Assembly: GCF_000802235.1 (NCBI RefSeq) | Contig: NZ_JTDL01000016.1 | Coordinates: forward strand, 34,816 to 98,815 | Direction of reading: 5' to 3' | DNA from: Sinomonas humi | GTDB taxonomy: Bacteria > Actinomycetota > Actinomycetes > Actinomycetales > Micrococcaceae | DNA length: 64,000 nt | The notes under the pieces: generated by a model | Database searches by the model: none | Told to the model about the DNA's origin: nothing | Seen by the model: the letters and a program-made list of their open reading frames with translations, nothing else | Shown: piece after piece, positions 4,778 through 61,037 of the stretch | How the letters are laid out: every line of letters begins with the position of its first letter | Numbering within the stretch: position 1 is the first letter of the stretch | Made by a program: the position numbers and the translations under genes

Positions 4778-6028
4778 CTAGTCGCCGGCCCGCTGCTGCG
4801 CGAGCCGGATCTCGAGGATTGCGTCCATGGTCTGCTGGACCTTCTCCGAGGCTCCCGCGTAACTGAACTGTTCGCGGGCGTCCTTCAGCAGTTCGAGCGC
4901 CTCGTCATTGCGGCCGAGCGCCTTGAGCGCCCGCCCGTAGAGGAGCGCGACCTCGCCTGCCGTGTGCCGCCCCAGGGCCGTCTTCTCGGAGTGGATCTCC
5001 TTGAGCCGCTCGATGGCCTCGGGAATCTGGCCGTTGAGGTAGAGCCAACGGGCTCGGATGAAGGCGACCTCGAGCTGCTCGGGCCTCGATCCGCCCACGA
5101 TCGAGAGGGCGAGCTCGGCACGTTCGATGGCGGCGAGGGTCTCGGGCTCGACGATCCCGCCCGAGAGACGGACAGCGGCCGAGGCTTTGTTGAACCGGGC
5201 CCAGAGCTCGATGTCGTTGGCGGGGGAGAGCAGCTTCGCGGCGCGCTCGTGGTGCTTGACGCCCTCCTCGTAGTCCGCACGCATGAACGCGACGTTGCCG
5301 ATCACCCACTCGACCTCGCCCGAGAGCTGCCCCATGGACTCCTCGTCAACGAGGGTGCCGAGGATTCGGCAGTAGTCCCACGCCTCGTCGAGGCGACCGC
5401 TCTCGGCCAGCGCCCCGATGAGGGCGCGCAGCGCTCCGATGTAGATCGTGGAGCCGGCCGGAAGCTGGGCACCGAGGCGTACCGCCTCGCGGGCGTGTTC
5501 GACGGCGGTGCCAAGCTGGCCGAGGCCGTGGGACACCGCTGCGAGCATCTGGTGTGCGCGCACCGCGAGGCCGTCCGACTCCGCGATGATGGGGTGCTCG
5601 AGGAGGTGCTGGACGATCCGCTGGCACTCGGCGAGCTGGCCCTGCTTCATGAGGCACTCGGCCTGCATGTAGGTCATGTTCCACCACGCGCTGTTGTTCT
5701 TCGCCTCGAGGGCGAACTGTGCGGCGGTTGCGGCGTGGCTCGCCGCCTGCGCGTAGTCGCGCATGTCCCAGGCCTGCCGGGCGTAGAGGCCCGCCAGGAC
5801 ATACTCGGCGTCGTTGGCCGTGACGGGCTGGCTCCAGGCCTCCAGTGCCTTCGGAGCGAGCTCGAGCCGGCGCGCGAGCTCTTGGATTACCTCGGGGGTG
5901 GGCTCACGGCGCCCTGTTTCGAGGAGGGAGATGTAGCTCGGCGAGTACAGGTCCTTCCCGAGCTCTGCCTGCGTCAGCCCACGCTCGAGGCGCTCGGCTC
6001 GCAACTTTTCGCCGAATCCGCTACCCAC
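4778..6028 (-). CDS. HTH (XRE-type) + TPR cytoplasmic regulator, candidate peptide receptor
   Basis: 416-residue DNA-binding regulator. An XRE/HTH_3 domain covers residues 9-61 (LRAERLERGLTQAELG, then SYISLLETGRREPTPE), followed by about 330 residues of helical repeats with TPR character, for example ALRALIGALAESGRLDEAWDYC and VALLYGRALKALGRNDEALEL. There is no signal peptide or membrane segment, so it acts in the cytosol. N-terminal HTH plus C-terminal TPR is the architecture of RRNPP receptors (Rgg, PlcR, NprR, PrgX), which bind short signalling peptides. The GTG at 6028 is chosen because GAGGAGG lies just upstream and the HTH begins immediately. It is divergent, over 155 nt, from a repeat-bearing secreted peptide gene, which makes a peptide ligand plausible but unproven. 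A TPR regulator with another partner is the alternative. Confidence 0.85.
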   Translation of the reverse strand: MGSGFGEKLRAERLERGLTQAELGKDLYSPSYISLLETGRREPTPEVIQELARRLELAPKALEAWSQPVTANDAEYVLAGLYARQAWDMRDYAQAASHAATAAQFALEAKNNSAWWNMTYMQAECLMKQGQLAECQRIVQHLLEHPIIAESDGLAVRAHQMLAAVSHGLGQLGTAVEHAREAVRLGAQLPAGSTIYIGALRALIGALAESGRLDEAWDYCRILGTLVDEESMGQLSGEVEWVIGNVAFMRADYEEGVKHHERAAKLLSPANDIELWARFNKASAAVRLSGGIVEPETLAAIERAELALSIVGGSRPEQLEVAFIRARWLYLNGQIPEAIERLKEIHSEKTALGRHTAGEVALLYGRALKALGRNDEALELLKDAREQFSYAGASEKVQQTMDAILEIRLAQQRAGD

Positions 6029-6078
6029 AACTTCCTCCTCGACTGGCCCCCCACCCAGTGGCTTGGGGGTAAGGCGAT

Positions 6079-6084
6079 AGACTA
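6079..6084 (-). promoter_or_regulatory. Candidate -10 box for the HTH-TPR regulator gene
   Basis: TAGTCT on the minus strand, 51 nt before the GTG. The left arm of the 6090/6129 inverted repeat lies immediately upstream of it, so a protein bound there could control this promoter too. I see no convincing -35. Confidence 0.35.
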
Positions 6085-6089
6085 GCGGC

Positions 6090-6118
6090 TTGACACCTGC
6101 TGTGGATGTTATTTTACT
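6090..6118 (+). promoter_or_regulatory. Promoter of the repeat-peptide gene
   Basis: A consensus -35 TTGACA (6090-6095), a 17-nt spacer, and -10 TTTACT (6113-6118). The ATG is at 6184, giving a leader of about 60 nt. The -35 overlaps the left arm of an inverted repeat. Confidence 0.7.
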
Positions 6119-6129
6119 TGGGGTGTCAA
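6090..6129. promoter_or_regulatory. Inverted repeat TTGACACC/GGTGTCAA, candidate operator
   Basis: Perfect 8-bp arms at 6090-6097 and 6122-6129. Their centres are 32 bp apart, about three helical turns, so both arms face the same side of the helix. The left arm contains the -35 and the right arm falls just after the -10 of the peptide promoter. This is a natural place for the divergent HTH-TPR protein to bind as a dimer or bridge two sites. Confidence 0.55.
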
Positions 6130-6183
6130 TCACGACAAAGCACGCTCTGCCCGATTGCACCCGCTACAACATAAGGACACGAC

Positions 6184-6444
6184 ATGCTCAAGAAGCTGAC
6201 TGCGTCACTCGCCCTCATCGGCGCGCTGGCAGTTGGAGGCGTTTCTGTTGCCCCGACCGCCATCGGCAACTGGCCCGACCCCATGAAGACCACCGCGATC
6301 GGCAACTGGCCCGATCCTATGAAGGCCACGGCCATTGGCAACTGGCCCGATCCCATGAAGGCCACGGCCATTGGCAACTGGCCTGACCCCATGAAGGCCA
6401 CCGCGATCGGCAACTGGCCCGACCCGATGAAGTCGACCTTCTGA
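6184..6444 (+). CDS. Secreted pre-propeptide with five copies of TAIGNWPDPMK
   Basis: 86-residue protein of a type I do not recognise. Residues 1-23 are a signal peptide (MLKK, then a hydrophobic stretch rich in Ala, Leu, Gly and Val). Residues 25-84 are five contiguous 12-residue units, TAIGNWPDPMK plus one variable residue (T, A, A, A, S), and the protein ends TF. All 11 core residues are identical in every copy, while the DNA copies differ at synonymous third positions. AAGGA lies 6 nt before the ATG. The gene has its own promoter and a strong terminator and is divergent from an HTH-TPR regulator. Inference: a multi-copy precursor of an extracellular signalling peptide, organised like yeast alpha-factor precursors. 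A repetitive wall or adhesive peptide, or a peptide bacteriocin, are alternatives. Confidence 0.85.
   Translation: MLKKLTASLALIGALAVGGVSVAPTAIGNWPDPMKTTAIGNWPDPMKATAIGNWPDPMKATAIGNWPDPMKATAIGNWPDPMKSTF
6256..6435 (+). repeat. Five 36-bp in-frame repeats in the peptide gene
   Basis: Units start at 6256, 6292, 6328, 6364 and 6400. Variation between units is synonymous at codons 1, 2, 3, 7, 8 and 9 and amino-acid-changing only at codon 12. The copies have therefore diverged while the peptide was held constant. Confidence 0.97.
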
Positions 6445-6519
6445 TTCGACTTCGGTGAGGGCCACCCGCCCTCATTCATGATCCGCTGTTGATCTAGCGG
6501 GTCCAGAGAAGTGCCAGGA

Positions 6520-6554
6520 AAGCCCCGCTTGTCTACCGACAGGCGGGGCTTTTC
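6520..6554. terminator. Strong Rho-independent terminator after the peptide gene
   Basis: AAAGCCCCGC plus TTGTC pairs with GACAG plus GCGGGGCTTTT around a four-base loop (TACC), ending in a T run. It stops the plus-strand peptide transcript. The A run on its left side means it can also terminate the convergent phosphoesterase gene ending at 6614. A smaller stem (TGAGGGC/GCCCTCA) precedes it at about 6455-6473. Confidence 0.9.
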
Positions 6555-6613
6555 CCGTCTCACGCTCCGTCAAATTCGCGCGCCATCCCTTGACAAATGT
6601 GTCAAACGCTTGC

Positions 6614-15727: not shown

Positions 15728-16661
15728 CCGCCGCTTCATCGTCCCCAAGCGGCTTCAGGGGGCGGCGCGCAGCTGGCTCGAGGAGGCAGACCGGCCGCCG
15801 CGGACCACGCGGCTGGCTTCCTCGGTAGTACTGGTCCGGGATTCGGCCGAAGGCACGGAGACGTGGCTCGCGTACCGCCCCGGCAACTCGCCGCTCGGGG
15901 TCGTCGCGTTCCCCGGGGGCTCGGTGCAGAATGCCGATCACGACACATTCGACTGGTTCGGCCCGTCTGTTGGCCAATGGGCAGAGATGCTCGGGGTCGA
16001 GGAGTTCTCGATCGCTCGAGCCCATGTCGTGGGAGCCATTCGGGAGCTCTTCGAGGAGACCGGCGTGCTCCTTGCTGGTTCGGACGCCACGACGGTGGTC
16101 GAGGGCACCGGCACCGCCGAATGGACGCGGGCCCGGGAAGCCGTGGCCAACGAAGAGATCAGCTTTGCCGACTTGATGGCCAAGCGCGGACTCGGCCTGC
16201 GGACCGATCTCCTGCGGCCGCTCGTGCACTGGGTCTCGCCGGACTTTGCCCACCGGCGTTTCGACACCCGTTACTTCGCCGCGACGCTTCCCGTGGGGCA
16301 GACTCCAATGCTTCTCCCCAGCCGCGGTGTCTGGGGCGAGTGGGTGCTGCCTGCTCGGCTACTCGCGGACCGTGAGACGCCGGCCTTCGGAGACCACGTC
16401 GGTGAGGACGACACCAAGGGACTTGCCTTGGCAGAGCTCCTCGTTCCGGCGAGCGAGATCATCCTCGAGAAGATCGCGAAGGCCAAGGGCTGCATTGCGT
16501 ACCTCAACCTCAAGCGCTCGACGCACACCTATCAGGCGCAGCTCGAGCAGGAGGACGGGAAGCTCTGGCTCCGTGTAGAGGCCCCGACCGTGGCCCCGGC
16601 AACGGCAGCCCTCACCGCCGTCCCCCGCCCCACCGTTTCGGGTACAGATAATCCCTCCTGA
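15711..16661 (+). CDS. NUDIX hydrolase
   Basis: 316-residue NUDIX-fold protein. VVAFPGGSV precedes a roughly 40-residue insert and then the Nudix helix HVVGAIRELFEETGVLL, a spaced arrangement typical of longer NUDIX proteins in this neighbourhood. Substrate unknown. The TTG at 15711 is chosen: GGAG lies 5 nt upstream and no other start precedes the conserved region. The stop (16659-16661) lies inside the first unit of the GTACCCG repeat cluster, so the last residues (VSGTDNPS) are repeat-derived. Confidence 0.88.
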   Translation: MQSSHSRRFIVPKRLQGAARSWLEEADRPPRTTRLASSVVLVRDSAEGTETWLAYRPGNSPLGVVAFPGGSVQNADHDTFDWFGPSVGQWAEMLGVEEFSIARAHVVGAIRELFEETGVLLAGSDATTVVEGTGTAEWTRAREAVANEEISFADLMAKRGLGLRTDLLRPLVHWVSPDFAHRRFDTRYFAATLPVGQTPMLLPSRGVWGEWVLPARLLADRETPAFGDHVGEDDTKGLALAELLVPASEIILEKIAKAKGCIAYLNLKRSTHTYQAQLEQEDGKLWLRVEAPTVAPATAALTAVPRPTVSGTDNPS

Positions 16662-16921
16662 GCCCATCTCGGGTACGGATACGAGCACCCCTAGGCGATT
16701 CGGGTACAGATAATCCGCCCTGAGCCCGTCTCGGGTACGGCTAACGACGACGGCCGGCCCCTTCCGCTGTGGAAGTGGCCGGCCGTTGAGTTTCCGTACC
16801 CGAGACGCCGGGGGAGTTGGCGTACCCGCAACGCTCTAGAGGGGGAGTTGGCGTACCCGAAACGGTCTAGAGAGGGAGTTGGCGTACCCGAAACCGGTTT
16901 TGGCGCGAGTTGGCGTACCCG
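16639..16921. repeat. Cluster of nine CGGGTAC/GTACCCG elements around a hairpin
   Basis: Four CGGGTAC copies (16639, 16670, 16701, 16732) lie left of a hairpin and five GTACCCG copies (16796, 16822, 16853, 16884, 16915) lie right of it, so orientation flips at the hairpin. The left copies are spaced exactly 31 bp, alternating CGGGTACAGATAATCC and CGGGTACGG contexts. Right copies share GAGTTGGCGTACCCG and are spaced 26-31 bp. The cluster fills the gap between convergent NUDIX and crp genes. Confidence 0.9.
16750..16786. terminator. 16-bp hairpin between the NUDIX and crp genes
   Basis: ACGGCCGGCC plus CTTCC pairs with GGAAG plus GGCCGGCCGT around a five-base loop, with one mismatch. It sits between convergent genes, so it probably terminates both. 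It is also the symmetry point of the CGGGTAC repeat cluster. Confidence 0.75.
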
Positions 16922-16928
16922 AGACGGG

Positions 16929-45054: not shown

Positions 45055-45587
45055 AAGGGGAGGGGCGAACCTTGCCGCGGGGGGATTCGGCCGGGAGACT
45101 CGGGGATTCGGCTGCGGTACGTGGGCGTCCAGCCTGGCCTCCTGAGAGCTCGGGCGGGAGACTCGGGGATTCGGCTGCGGGGAGAGCAGTTGCCGCCCCG
45201 GGCAGGCGGTCCTCGCGTCCCGCGTCGGGGCGAACTGCCATCGGAGGCGCCGACAGGGGTGCCGGGACAATTCTGGCCTTAGCGCTGGCTCTGGTGGCAA
45301 TTCTGGGCTGTTCGGCGGCAGTCTTGCTGTCCCAAACCGTGATCGCGGCCGAGCGTGCTGGACGGGCGGCCGATCTCGCGGCGCTGGCTGCTGCAGATGC
45401 CGAGCGTGGTCTCGCACCCGGCGAGACGTGTGCCGTCGCCCAAGAGGTTGCACGGCTTAACGCAGCTCGAGTGGTGTCGTGCGACGTTGAGCTGCCGGGG
45501 GCGGTGGTCCGAGTGGTGGTTCGGGGGGAGGAAGTCATGGCCACGGGCCACGTCGAGGGCCGAGCCCGTGCTGGCCAGCCGCCGTGA
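45051..45587 (+). CDS. TadE/TadG-like secreted protein (Rv3654c-like)
   Basis: 178 residues starting with TTG (TTGA overlap). A Gly/Arg/Ser-rich leader of about 70 residues is followed by DRGAGTILALALALVAILG (one helix) and an extracytoplasmic domain with ERAGRAADLAALAAADAE and two Cys (GETCAV, VVSCDV) that could form a disulfide. This matches the last small gene of the M. tuberculosis Tad cluster. The leader contains a duplicated segment (GRLGDSAA twice) encoded by an exact 26-bp DNA repeat. The stop lies inside the 23-bp repeat array. Confidence 0.8.
   Translation: MKGEGRTLPRGDSAGRLGDSAAVRGRPAWPPESSGGRLGDSAAGRAVAAPGRRSSRPASGRTAIGGADRGAGTILALALALVAILGCSAAVLLSQTVIAAERAGRAADLAALAAADAERGLAPGETCAVAQEVARLNAARVVSCDVELPGAVVRVVVRGEEVMATGHVEGRARAGQPP
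45092..45180. repeat. Exact 26-bp direct repeat within the TadE/G-like gene
   Basis: Copies at 45092-45117 and 45155-45180, starting CGGGAGACTCGGGGATTCGG. A partial copy (GGGGATTCGG) lies at 45081-45090. Both encode GRLGDSAA in the same frame. Confidence 0.95.
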
Positions 45588-45683
45588 GCCAGTGCAGGTC
45601 AGTCGCTGTGAGCCGTGCGGGCCAGCCGCCCTGAGCCGTGCTGGCCAGCCCCCCTGAGCCGTGTGGGCCCAGGCGCCGCGAGC
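45568..45683. repeat. Five 23-bp tandem repeats at the end of the Tad operon
   Basis: Units begin at 45568, 45592, 45615, 45638 and 45661, consensus GTGCTGGCCAGCCGCCCTGA then GCC. There is a one-base insertion between units 1 and 2. Unit 1 contains the stop codon of the TadE/G-like gene. The gap to the convergent helicase gene is otherwise empty. Confidence 0.9.
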
Positions 45684-60303: not shown

Positions 60304-61037
60304 GTGCCCATCCTGCCAGCAGCGGCCCCCGGCGCGCATTCCCAGCTTCTTCACATCTGCGCTGGGGCCTACTCACAAGAAGGCTGCCTACTGTTGTAAA
60401 TACCTCACAGGGTGCGAGTGATGGAGCGGCCGCTTCCCCAAGCGGTCGCACGGCGCTGGCAGTTGCGGATATTGGTCCCCCACCTTCCCCGCTTCTGCCA
60501 GCGCCTTACTCGTTAAGGCCGTGATTTGGGCGTCGGGCACCGTCGGGAGGTGACGCTTGGACGGGTGGGCACCCCGGCGTCGTCGTCCGTTGGTCACGTA
60601 CCGACGGTCTTCGAGCGTTCAAGTGTCACGTGACGACGGCCGGGCGCCCCTCCGGAAGGCGAGGCCACCGTCGGGAGGTGACGCTTGGACGGGAGGGGCG
60701 CGCCGTCGTCGTCGTCCATTCGTCACGTACCGACGGTCTTCAAGCATTCAAGCGTCACGTGACGACGGTCGGGCGACCCTTGGACGGGAGGGCACCGTCG
60801 GGAGGTGACGCTTGGATGGGTGGGCACCGTCGGGAGGTGACGCTTGGATGGGTGGGCACCGTCGGGAGGTGACGCTTGGATGGGTGGGCACCGTCGGGAG
60901 GTGACGCTTGGACGGGTGGGCACCGTCGGGAGGTGACGCTTGGATGGGTGGGCACTGTCGGGAGGTGACGCTTGGACGGGTGGGCACCGTCGGGAGGTGA
61001 CCCTTGGACGATGCGTTTGGAGGAGGCGCTTGGGGGG
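60304..61037. other. 735-nt gap: inverted repeats and a tandem array, no gene
   Basis: From 60304 it holds the proC upstream region. Next is an 11-bp inverted repeat (GGCGCTGGCAG 60452-60462, CTGCCAGCGCC 60495-60505), then the repeat array to about 61015. The short open frames inside the array are translated repeats without ribosome binding sites and I do not call them. Confidence 0.7.
60542..61015. repeat. 32-bp tandem repeat array with a higher-order 128-bp unit
   Basis: The 20-base core GTCGGGAGGTGACGCTTGGA occurs at 60797, 60829, 60861, 60893, 60925, 60957 and 60989 (the last with one change), a strict 32-bp period. Outlying copies are at 60542 and 60670, 128 bp (4 x 32) apart. Each outlier is followed by a related segment containing TCACGTACCGACGGTCTTC and TCACGTGACGACGG. 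There are no unique spacers. Confidence 0.95.

Follow-up and report, generated by a model that had tools for sequence, protein, structure and literature searches.

Could two divergent genes of the actinobacterium Sinomonas humi form a peptide-signalling system of the RRNPP type? Peptide signalling through cytoplasmic receptors built of tetratricopeptide repeats (TPR) has been described for Bacillota, and actinobacterial signals are said to be typically small molecules (PMC10075063). The window analysed here, a stretch of 64,000 nucleotides (contig NZ_JTDL01000016.1 of assembly GCF_000802235.1, positions 34,816 to 98,815 of the forward strand), carries a gene for a 416-residue regulator with a helix-turn-helix (HTH) domain followed by TPR, and, divergent from it across a gap of 155 nt (6029-6183), a gene for a predicted secreted protein of 86 residues with five TAIGNWPDPMK units. 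An earlier note on this DNA had proposed the two as a candidate peptide-signalling pair. Its coordinates proved exact, and two results support the proposal: all 80 named loci and 83 of 133 diverse ones have a divergent secreted-type ORF beside the receptor gene, and the peptide core covaries with the receptor. The pair is a well-supported candidate for RRNPP-type peptide signalling in an actinobacterium, within a larger and seemingly undescribed family. Judged from the sequences, it probably works as a peptide-pheromone system in the manner of RRNPP quorum sensing. The features of the pair are the following:

4778..6028, minus strand: receptor/regulator gene, 416 residues (open reading frame (ORF), Pfam HTH_3 and TPR, AlphaFold2 model, same-genus orthologues), with the HTH at about residues 3-66 and the TPR solenoid at about residues 71-415
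6184..6444, plus strand: propeptide gene, 86 residues with five TAIGNWPDPMK units (translation, Tandem Repeats Finder, homologues, unit differences synonymous only)
6184..6252, plus strand: predicted Sec signal peptide, residues 1-23 (from the sequence, the cleavage site read by eye)
6256..6288, plus strand: repeat unit 1, TAIGNWPDPMK (this and the next four by translation and unit comparison)
6292..6324, plus strand: repeat unit 2, TAIGNWPDPMK
6328..6360, plus strand: repeat unit 3, TAIGNWPDPMK
6364..6396, plus strand: repeat unit 4, TAIGNWPDPMK
6400..6432, plus strand: repeat unit 5, TAIGNWPDPMK

The regulator is read from 6028 down to 4778, starts with GTG and has AGGAGG close 5' of the start, as seen by eye. 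Pfam recognises several TPR families and, across residues 9-57, HTH_3 (E 7e-12); the AlphaFold2 model shows the HTH followed by a TPR solenoid, with a mean pLDDT (predicted local distance difference test) of 91.6. The protein is 99% identical to its counterpart in Sinomonas susongensis (locus L071) and has an orthologue in all 14 same-genus genomes searched. Matches of any kind at E 1e-3 were present in 31 of 58 genomes, the own genome counted, and matches at E 1e-10 in 143 of the 295 genomes of the family sample.

The propeptide begins with a basic N-terminus followed by a hydrophobic stretch and passes a simple signal-peptide rule. Tandem Repeats Finder reports a period of 36 bp and 4.9 copies at 6256-6432. 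Among the five units, each of 33 nt, six sites vary, every one of them a third codon position and synonymous, where about 20% of single changes in the units would be synonymous (rough odds 7e-5, with the shared ancestry of the units ignored). As the differences are synonymous only, the peptide itself is conserved, beyond mere likeness of the DNA. Family databases gave no supported match: hits stayed below threshold, with E-values of 0.11 in Pfam and 0.21 in NCBIfam, and PADLOC and PHROGs had none at E 0.01. A protein search returned 374 proteins at E <=1; each of the 120 listed contains GNWPDP two to five times, and the linkers between the copies differ from one homologue to another.

The linkage of receptor and peptide was scored by a blind rule that asked for a divergent ORF starting within 320 nt, with a basic N-terminus, a hydrophobic stretch and no early acidic residue. 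An ORF of this secreted type containing Trp-Pro (WP) was found at 80/80 named GTDB loci, which are the top 80 among 242 confirmed relatives and thus close ones (74-99% identity), and at 83/133 diverse loci. Control windows at the same loci passed in 15/3103 and 15/3639 cases (0.4-0.5%). The two counts overlap, since 16 of the 80 named loci repeat a receptor identical to one of the diverse set; the count of 133 covers Micrococcaceae and omits L067 (an HTH fragment) and L068-L070 (other families). When short leaderless forms picked by eye (GIGDWPHAA, SVGDWPD, RVGNWPD, GRVNWPF) are added, the diverse loci with a peptide rise to 91/132, the smaller denominator, also that of the operator count below, additionally omitting L051 with its split gene. 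The earlier note had named homologous regulators consistently without an adjacent repeat peptide as the finding that would speak against the pair, and the opposite is seen.

Copy number and core were counted on 157 distinct pairs out of 171; in these counts, as in those of covariation and operator, nine peptides were added or corrected by eye where the blind rule had missed or mis-picked them, and the doubtful core of L245 (NQNDWPISY) was kept. In the closest clade (95 distinct loci with 269 copies in all) the residues G, W, P, D and P are invariant, N is present in 266/269 copies and M in 262/269. I or V precedes G in 266/269, A stands at the next position outward in 175, and the letters further out vary widely. 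Close relatives share the frozen core GNWPDPM, whereas their linkers and copy number drift. IGNWPDPM occurs in as many as six copies in Sinomonas and Arthrobacter and in as many as eight in relatives. Since the ORF ends directly after the core in 79 of the 95 loci (73 of them with M), these sequences suggest that the C-terminus of the mature peptide lies there. HTH-type pairs have one to eight copies (122 distinct pairs; at least two copies in 110, a single copy in 12), and pairs whose receptor lacks the HTH have a single copy in 26/35. Distant HTH-type pairs show the cores GDWPH, GEWPH, GIWPNS, GNWPDAV, GIWPDS, WIWPDS, GNWPDR and GNWPDPS; those of HTH-less pairs are GWWPN, GWWPH, NNWPY, GSWPF, GDWPN and DDWPH. 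In several genomes two receptors occur whose cores differ, such as IGNWPDPM (HTH) and IGWWPN (HTH-less).

The core also varies with the receptor; covariation of the peptide with the TPR domain was a check that the earlier note had proposed. In Mantel comparisons of 56 HTH-type pairs, from which the 80 named loci (L071-L150) were left out, core distance correlated with TPR distance at 0.81 and with HTH distance at 0.79. The partial correlation was 0.32 for the TPR given the HTH (0/999 permutations) and 0.13 for the HTH given the TPR (42/999). When the set was reduced to the 32 receptors scoring below 690 bits, six of which have the GNWPDPM core, the values were 0.17 (29/999) and 0.10 (140/999), respectively. 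The TPR-specific covariation is clear in the 56-pair set and weak in the 32-receptor set, and shared descent accounts for part of the covariation of core and receptor. Among HTH-less pairs (n=34, L066 left out) core and receptor distance correlated at 0.64 (0/999).

The gap between the two genes and the region behind the propeptide contain two further features:

6090..6129, no strand assigned: predicted operator, the inverted repeat TTGACA-N28-TGTCAA with TTTAC within, 40 bp (alignment, shuffles, locus counts)
6519..6553, plus strand: terminator-like hairpin behind the propeptide, with a 10-bp stem and a 14-nt loop followed by T (read by eye, stem checked; the hairpin scan was limited to loops of up to 8 nt, so it is unreported there)

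Shuffled versions of the window contain no such inverted repeat (0 expected). TTGACA...TTTAC...TGTCAA is visible in 26 aligned intergenic regions, with fixed spacing wherever it is present. The strict form TTGACA-N28-TGTCAA occurs at 79/80 named loci and at 38/56 diverse HTH loci with a peptide, and at 0/40 HTH loci without a found peptide and 0/36 HTH-less loci. In the own genome it is a single site, also when three mismatches are allowed in a longer form, and as the search gave no further sites there, no output genes were named. Across 22 genomes the own locus was matched in 14 of 15 Sinomonas genomes; G012 was the one without a site, and G009 had an extra match with an unlike inner sequence. 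Of seven genomes of the same order, two had one unlike site each, and one of these two gave a control match as well. We read the repeat as a putative regulator site that spans the promoter of the propeptide. The core promoter would then be TTGACA, 17 nt and TTTACT, which the scan mentioned above did not list, and the first half of the operator could be its -35 box. A palindrome downstream of the propeptide, TTGACAAATGTGTCAA (6590-6605), was considered as a part of the system and rejected, as similar sequence is present at just 3 of 16 close loci, the own one included.

In a quick tree of 131 receptors those lacking the HTH form one clade, hence one change, while the presence of a peptide changes about nine times; long branches were flagged in this tree, the core at L185 was wrong and L198 was miscounted as lacking a peptide, so that nine may be one too many. 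At four loci of Arthrobacter-type or related genomes (L060, L065, L227, L235) the HTH-less receptor adjoins a long ORF of like sequence. A domain search that covered L235 and L065 identified it at L235 as REC-GAF-HisKA and found an ORF with DUF7793 near L235 and one with GGDEF-EAL near L065; four further inspected loci (L217, L218, L223, L238) have different neighbours. From these neighbourhoods our guess is that HTH-less receptors act on a phosphorelay, as Rap does. Neither WP peptide nor operator repeat was found at the receptor paralogues of Sinomonas (L052-L059) or in a clade of 16 receptors (L193, L195-L197, L199-L209, L226), and receptors of this kind could be eavesdroppers or have another ligand or role. 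Separately, the Arthrobacter-type loci L367, L368, L370 and L371 have about four RIGNWPDPM-like repeats (alignment A4) in an ORF that shows no obvious signal peptide; in genomes G022 and G265 this ORF is distant from the gene of the receptor.

How close does the pair come to known RRNPP systems? Receptors of the RRNPP(A) group are 250-500 residues long and contain TPR (PMC10075063), and the regulator agrees in size and fold; like all of them but Rap it has an N-terminal HTH. Receptor and propeptide genes are directly adjacent, another trait of the group. Propeptides of the group have 10-100 residues and leave the cell by Sec; the one here has 86 residues and a start that looks signal-like by a simple rule. 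Mature RRNPP peptides have 5-10 residues (PMC11343458); oligopeptide permease takes them up again, and by docking on the concave side of the TPR they switch the receptor. In control of the PlcR/TprA type the regulator occupies an inverted-repeat operator at the promoter of the propeptide, for which the conserved TTGACA-N28-TGTCAA is the candidate here. As to common descent, a PlcR profile matches the regulator at E 6.6e-11 over the HTH and part of the TPR; designed pentatricopeptide repeat proteins score higher. No RRNPP chain appears among the matches listed in a search with the TPR-only profile, the fold lists are topped by LGN, and they do not single out RRNPP receptors among TPR proteins.

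The closest known RRNPP system is TprA/PhrA of Streptococcus pneumoniae, which like TprA2/PhrA2 combines a PlcR-homologous regulator with a Sec-type propeptide in opposite orientation; its host belongs to the Bacillota, however, and the portion of PMC7595303 at hand mentions no multi-copy form there. PlcR/PapR and NprR/NprX of Bacillus belong to that other phylum too, and in Bacillales the propeptide lies directly downstream (PMC9765709). The HTH-less clade resembles Rap/Phr of Bacillus in its mostly single-copy, C-terminal peptides, the single-copy forms being about 45-55 residues long and ending in ...WPx, but differs in that the genes are divergent and the core contains WP. Several pheromones per propeptide are also encoded by the tandem Phr of Rap3T/Phr3T and Rap105/Phr105; RRNPP propeptides are reported with 1-4 copies (PMC11343458), against 1-8 here with a core frozen in the close clade. 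Since multi-copy propeptides are common for AimR, NprR, Rap and PlcR (PMC9765709), the earlier note's view that RRNPP propeptides normally carry one copy needs correction; its idea that copy number raises the dose is conjecture. No actinobacterial RRNPP-like system, and neither GNWPDP nor NWPDPM, was found in searches of the open-licence PMC library (subscription papers and bioRxiv lay outside its scope), and the text of PMC12700828 contains no word beginning with 'actino'.

We infer that the regulator senses the peptide, along a route that can be sketched as follows. The propeptide would be exported by Sec and cut by signal peptidase after ...VSVA, and extracellular proteases would cleave the variable linkers to yield several identical peptides around IGNWPDPM. 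An oligopeptide permease would return the peptide to the cytoplasm; the genome encodes four SBP_bac_5 proteins, members of a family that 11 of the 14 control genomes have as well. There the peptide would bind in the TPR groove of the divergently encoded regulator and alter its grip on TTGACA-N28-TGTCAA, which overlaps the likely propeptide promoter. In TprA/PhrA the peptide is internalised by an oligopeptide permease and relieves repression (PMC7595303). By analogy our bet on polarity is that the propeptide promoter is repressed as long as the regulator is free of peptide, and that the peptide lifts this repression, which would make a self-amplifying switch.

The repeat protein could instead be the product itself, an antimicrobial, surface or plant-active peptide, while the regulator responds to something else, such as a nutrient or partner protein, and does no more than control its expression. 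Such a role would agree with an operator-like repeat at one locus alone in the own genome, with no output genes known, and with the varied partners that TPR domains bind, LGN ranking above the RRNPP receptors. The covariation of the core with the TPR part of the receptor speaks against it, and a simple effector regulator would not explain why TPR receptors without an HTH retain a peptide gene of their own; the short single-copy forms, too, resemble Phr-type propeptides. We consider this explanation unlikely.

Two others find still less room beside the pheromone interpretation. Tandem DNA repeats of variable copy number might belong to a structural or wall-binding protein in which slippage keeps the repeats alike and no free peptide plays a part. 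Against this stand units that differ synonymously only, a core conserved across linkers of very different sequence and length, and a single copy in 26/35 HTH-less and 12/122 distinct HTH-type pairs; such a protein is quite improbable. The repeats might also be the cores of a ribosomally synthesised and post-translationally modified peptide (RiPP), the leader being a recognition leader and not a signal peptide. RiPP families include multi-core precursors, and the unlinked RIGNWPDPM-like repeat ORFs without an obvious signal peptide point the same way. Yet the leader passes the signal-peptide rule at 80/80 named loci and no maturation enzyme is found among the neighbours to which this search was limited: purD and purC on one flank of the pair, and on the opposite flank a phosphoesterase, tRNA-Pro and two ABC-transporter proteins. 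A RiPP is hardly to be expected here.

How far does the pheromone family extend? Profile A1 also finds weak receptor relatives in the order's other families. These were selected by receptor score, independently of any peptide, and often have divergent secreted-type ORFs that end near Cys-Cys (CC); two such cases had appeared earlier among L068-L070. Profile A2, built from these weak relatives, matched 67 of 296 genomes of the class at E 1e-30. A set of 86 receptor rows (L282-L366), with some near-duplicates and 15 loci from a separate fetch, and without A2 matches starting at profile position >=10, has a divergent signal-like ORF in 51 and CC within the last 12 residues in 40, while control windows contained CC-ending ORFs in 16/1880 cases. 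In the remaining 35 rows no signal-like divergent ORF was found, and the Streptomyces-like loci L345-L352 show neither a WP nor a Cys-Cys motif. Forms such as QPDWPGMCC and LNWPKCC join the two peptide classes. We lean towards a broad pheromone superfamily proper to Actinomycetota, of TPR receptors with or without an HTH and divergent short secreted propeptides, that would comprise a Trp-Pro branch (IGNWPDPM frozen in Sinomonas and Arthrobacter, private codes elsewhere) and a Cys-Cys branch in more distant families, WPGMCC and WPKCC being intermediate.

The CC-ending loci are L283-L285, L288-L290, L292-L295, L298-L319, L324, L325, L327, L328, L330, L332, L337, L341-L343, L362 and L364, with peptides such as WPGMCC, SPGDFCC, HPPTCC, GIWCC and GPGPMCCAG, in which CC stands at or close to the end. 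At the Streptomyces-like locus L365 a divergent secreted-type ORF beside a distant receptor relative contains two DIGWP units. On two Streptomyces plasmids (L380, L382) a small ORF of 45 or 36 residues overlaps the 3' side of the regulator relative, and the shared C-terminus GRATAIMAALSAC possibly marks a third type of peptide, encoded downstream of the receptor; the third plasmid locus, L381, has no such overlapping ORF.

A phage or plasmid origin of the locus was rejected. Searches of viral contigs gave no confirmed regulator relative with profile A3 and one weak match, over the first 110 residues, with profile A2, and none was found in phage records. Plasmid records hold 21 relatives (20 from Streptomyces, one from Embleya), all below 60% identity; 15 of the 21 are listed, at 26.6-50.0%. 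Elsewhere in the window dense tandem repeats with periods of 32 and 129 occupy 60538-61010, and shorter arrays lie at 16638-16927 (period 31) and 45566-45677 (period 23).

If the pheromone interpretation is true, the cell-cell communication of soil Actinomycetota would be opened to direct experiment through a testable family: its peptide sequence follows from the genome, so that the peptide can be made synthetically. The family would also provide receptor-peptide pairs in a natural series, on which specificity could be studied, and a clean example of copy-number change with a frozen unit.
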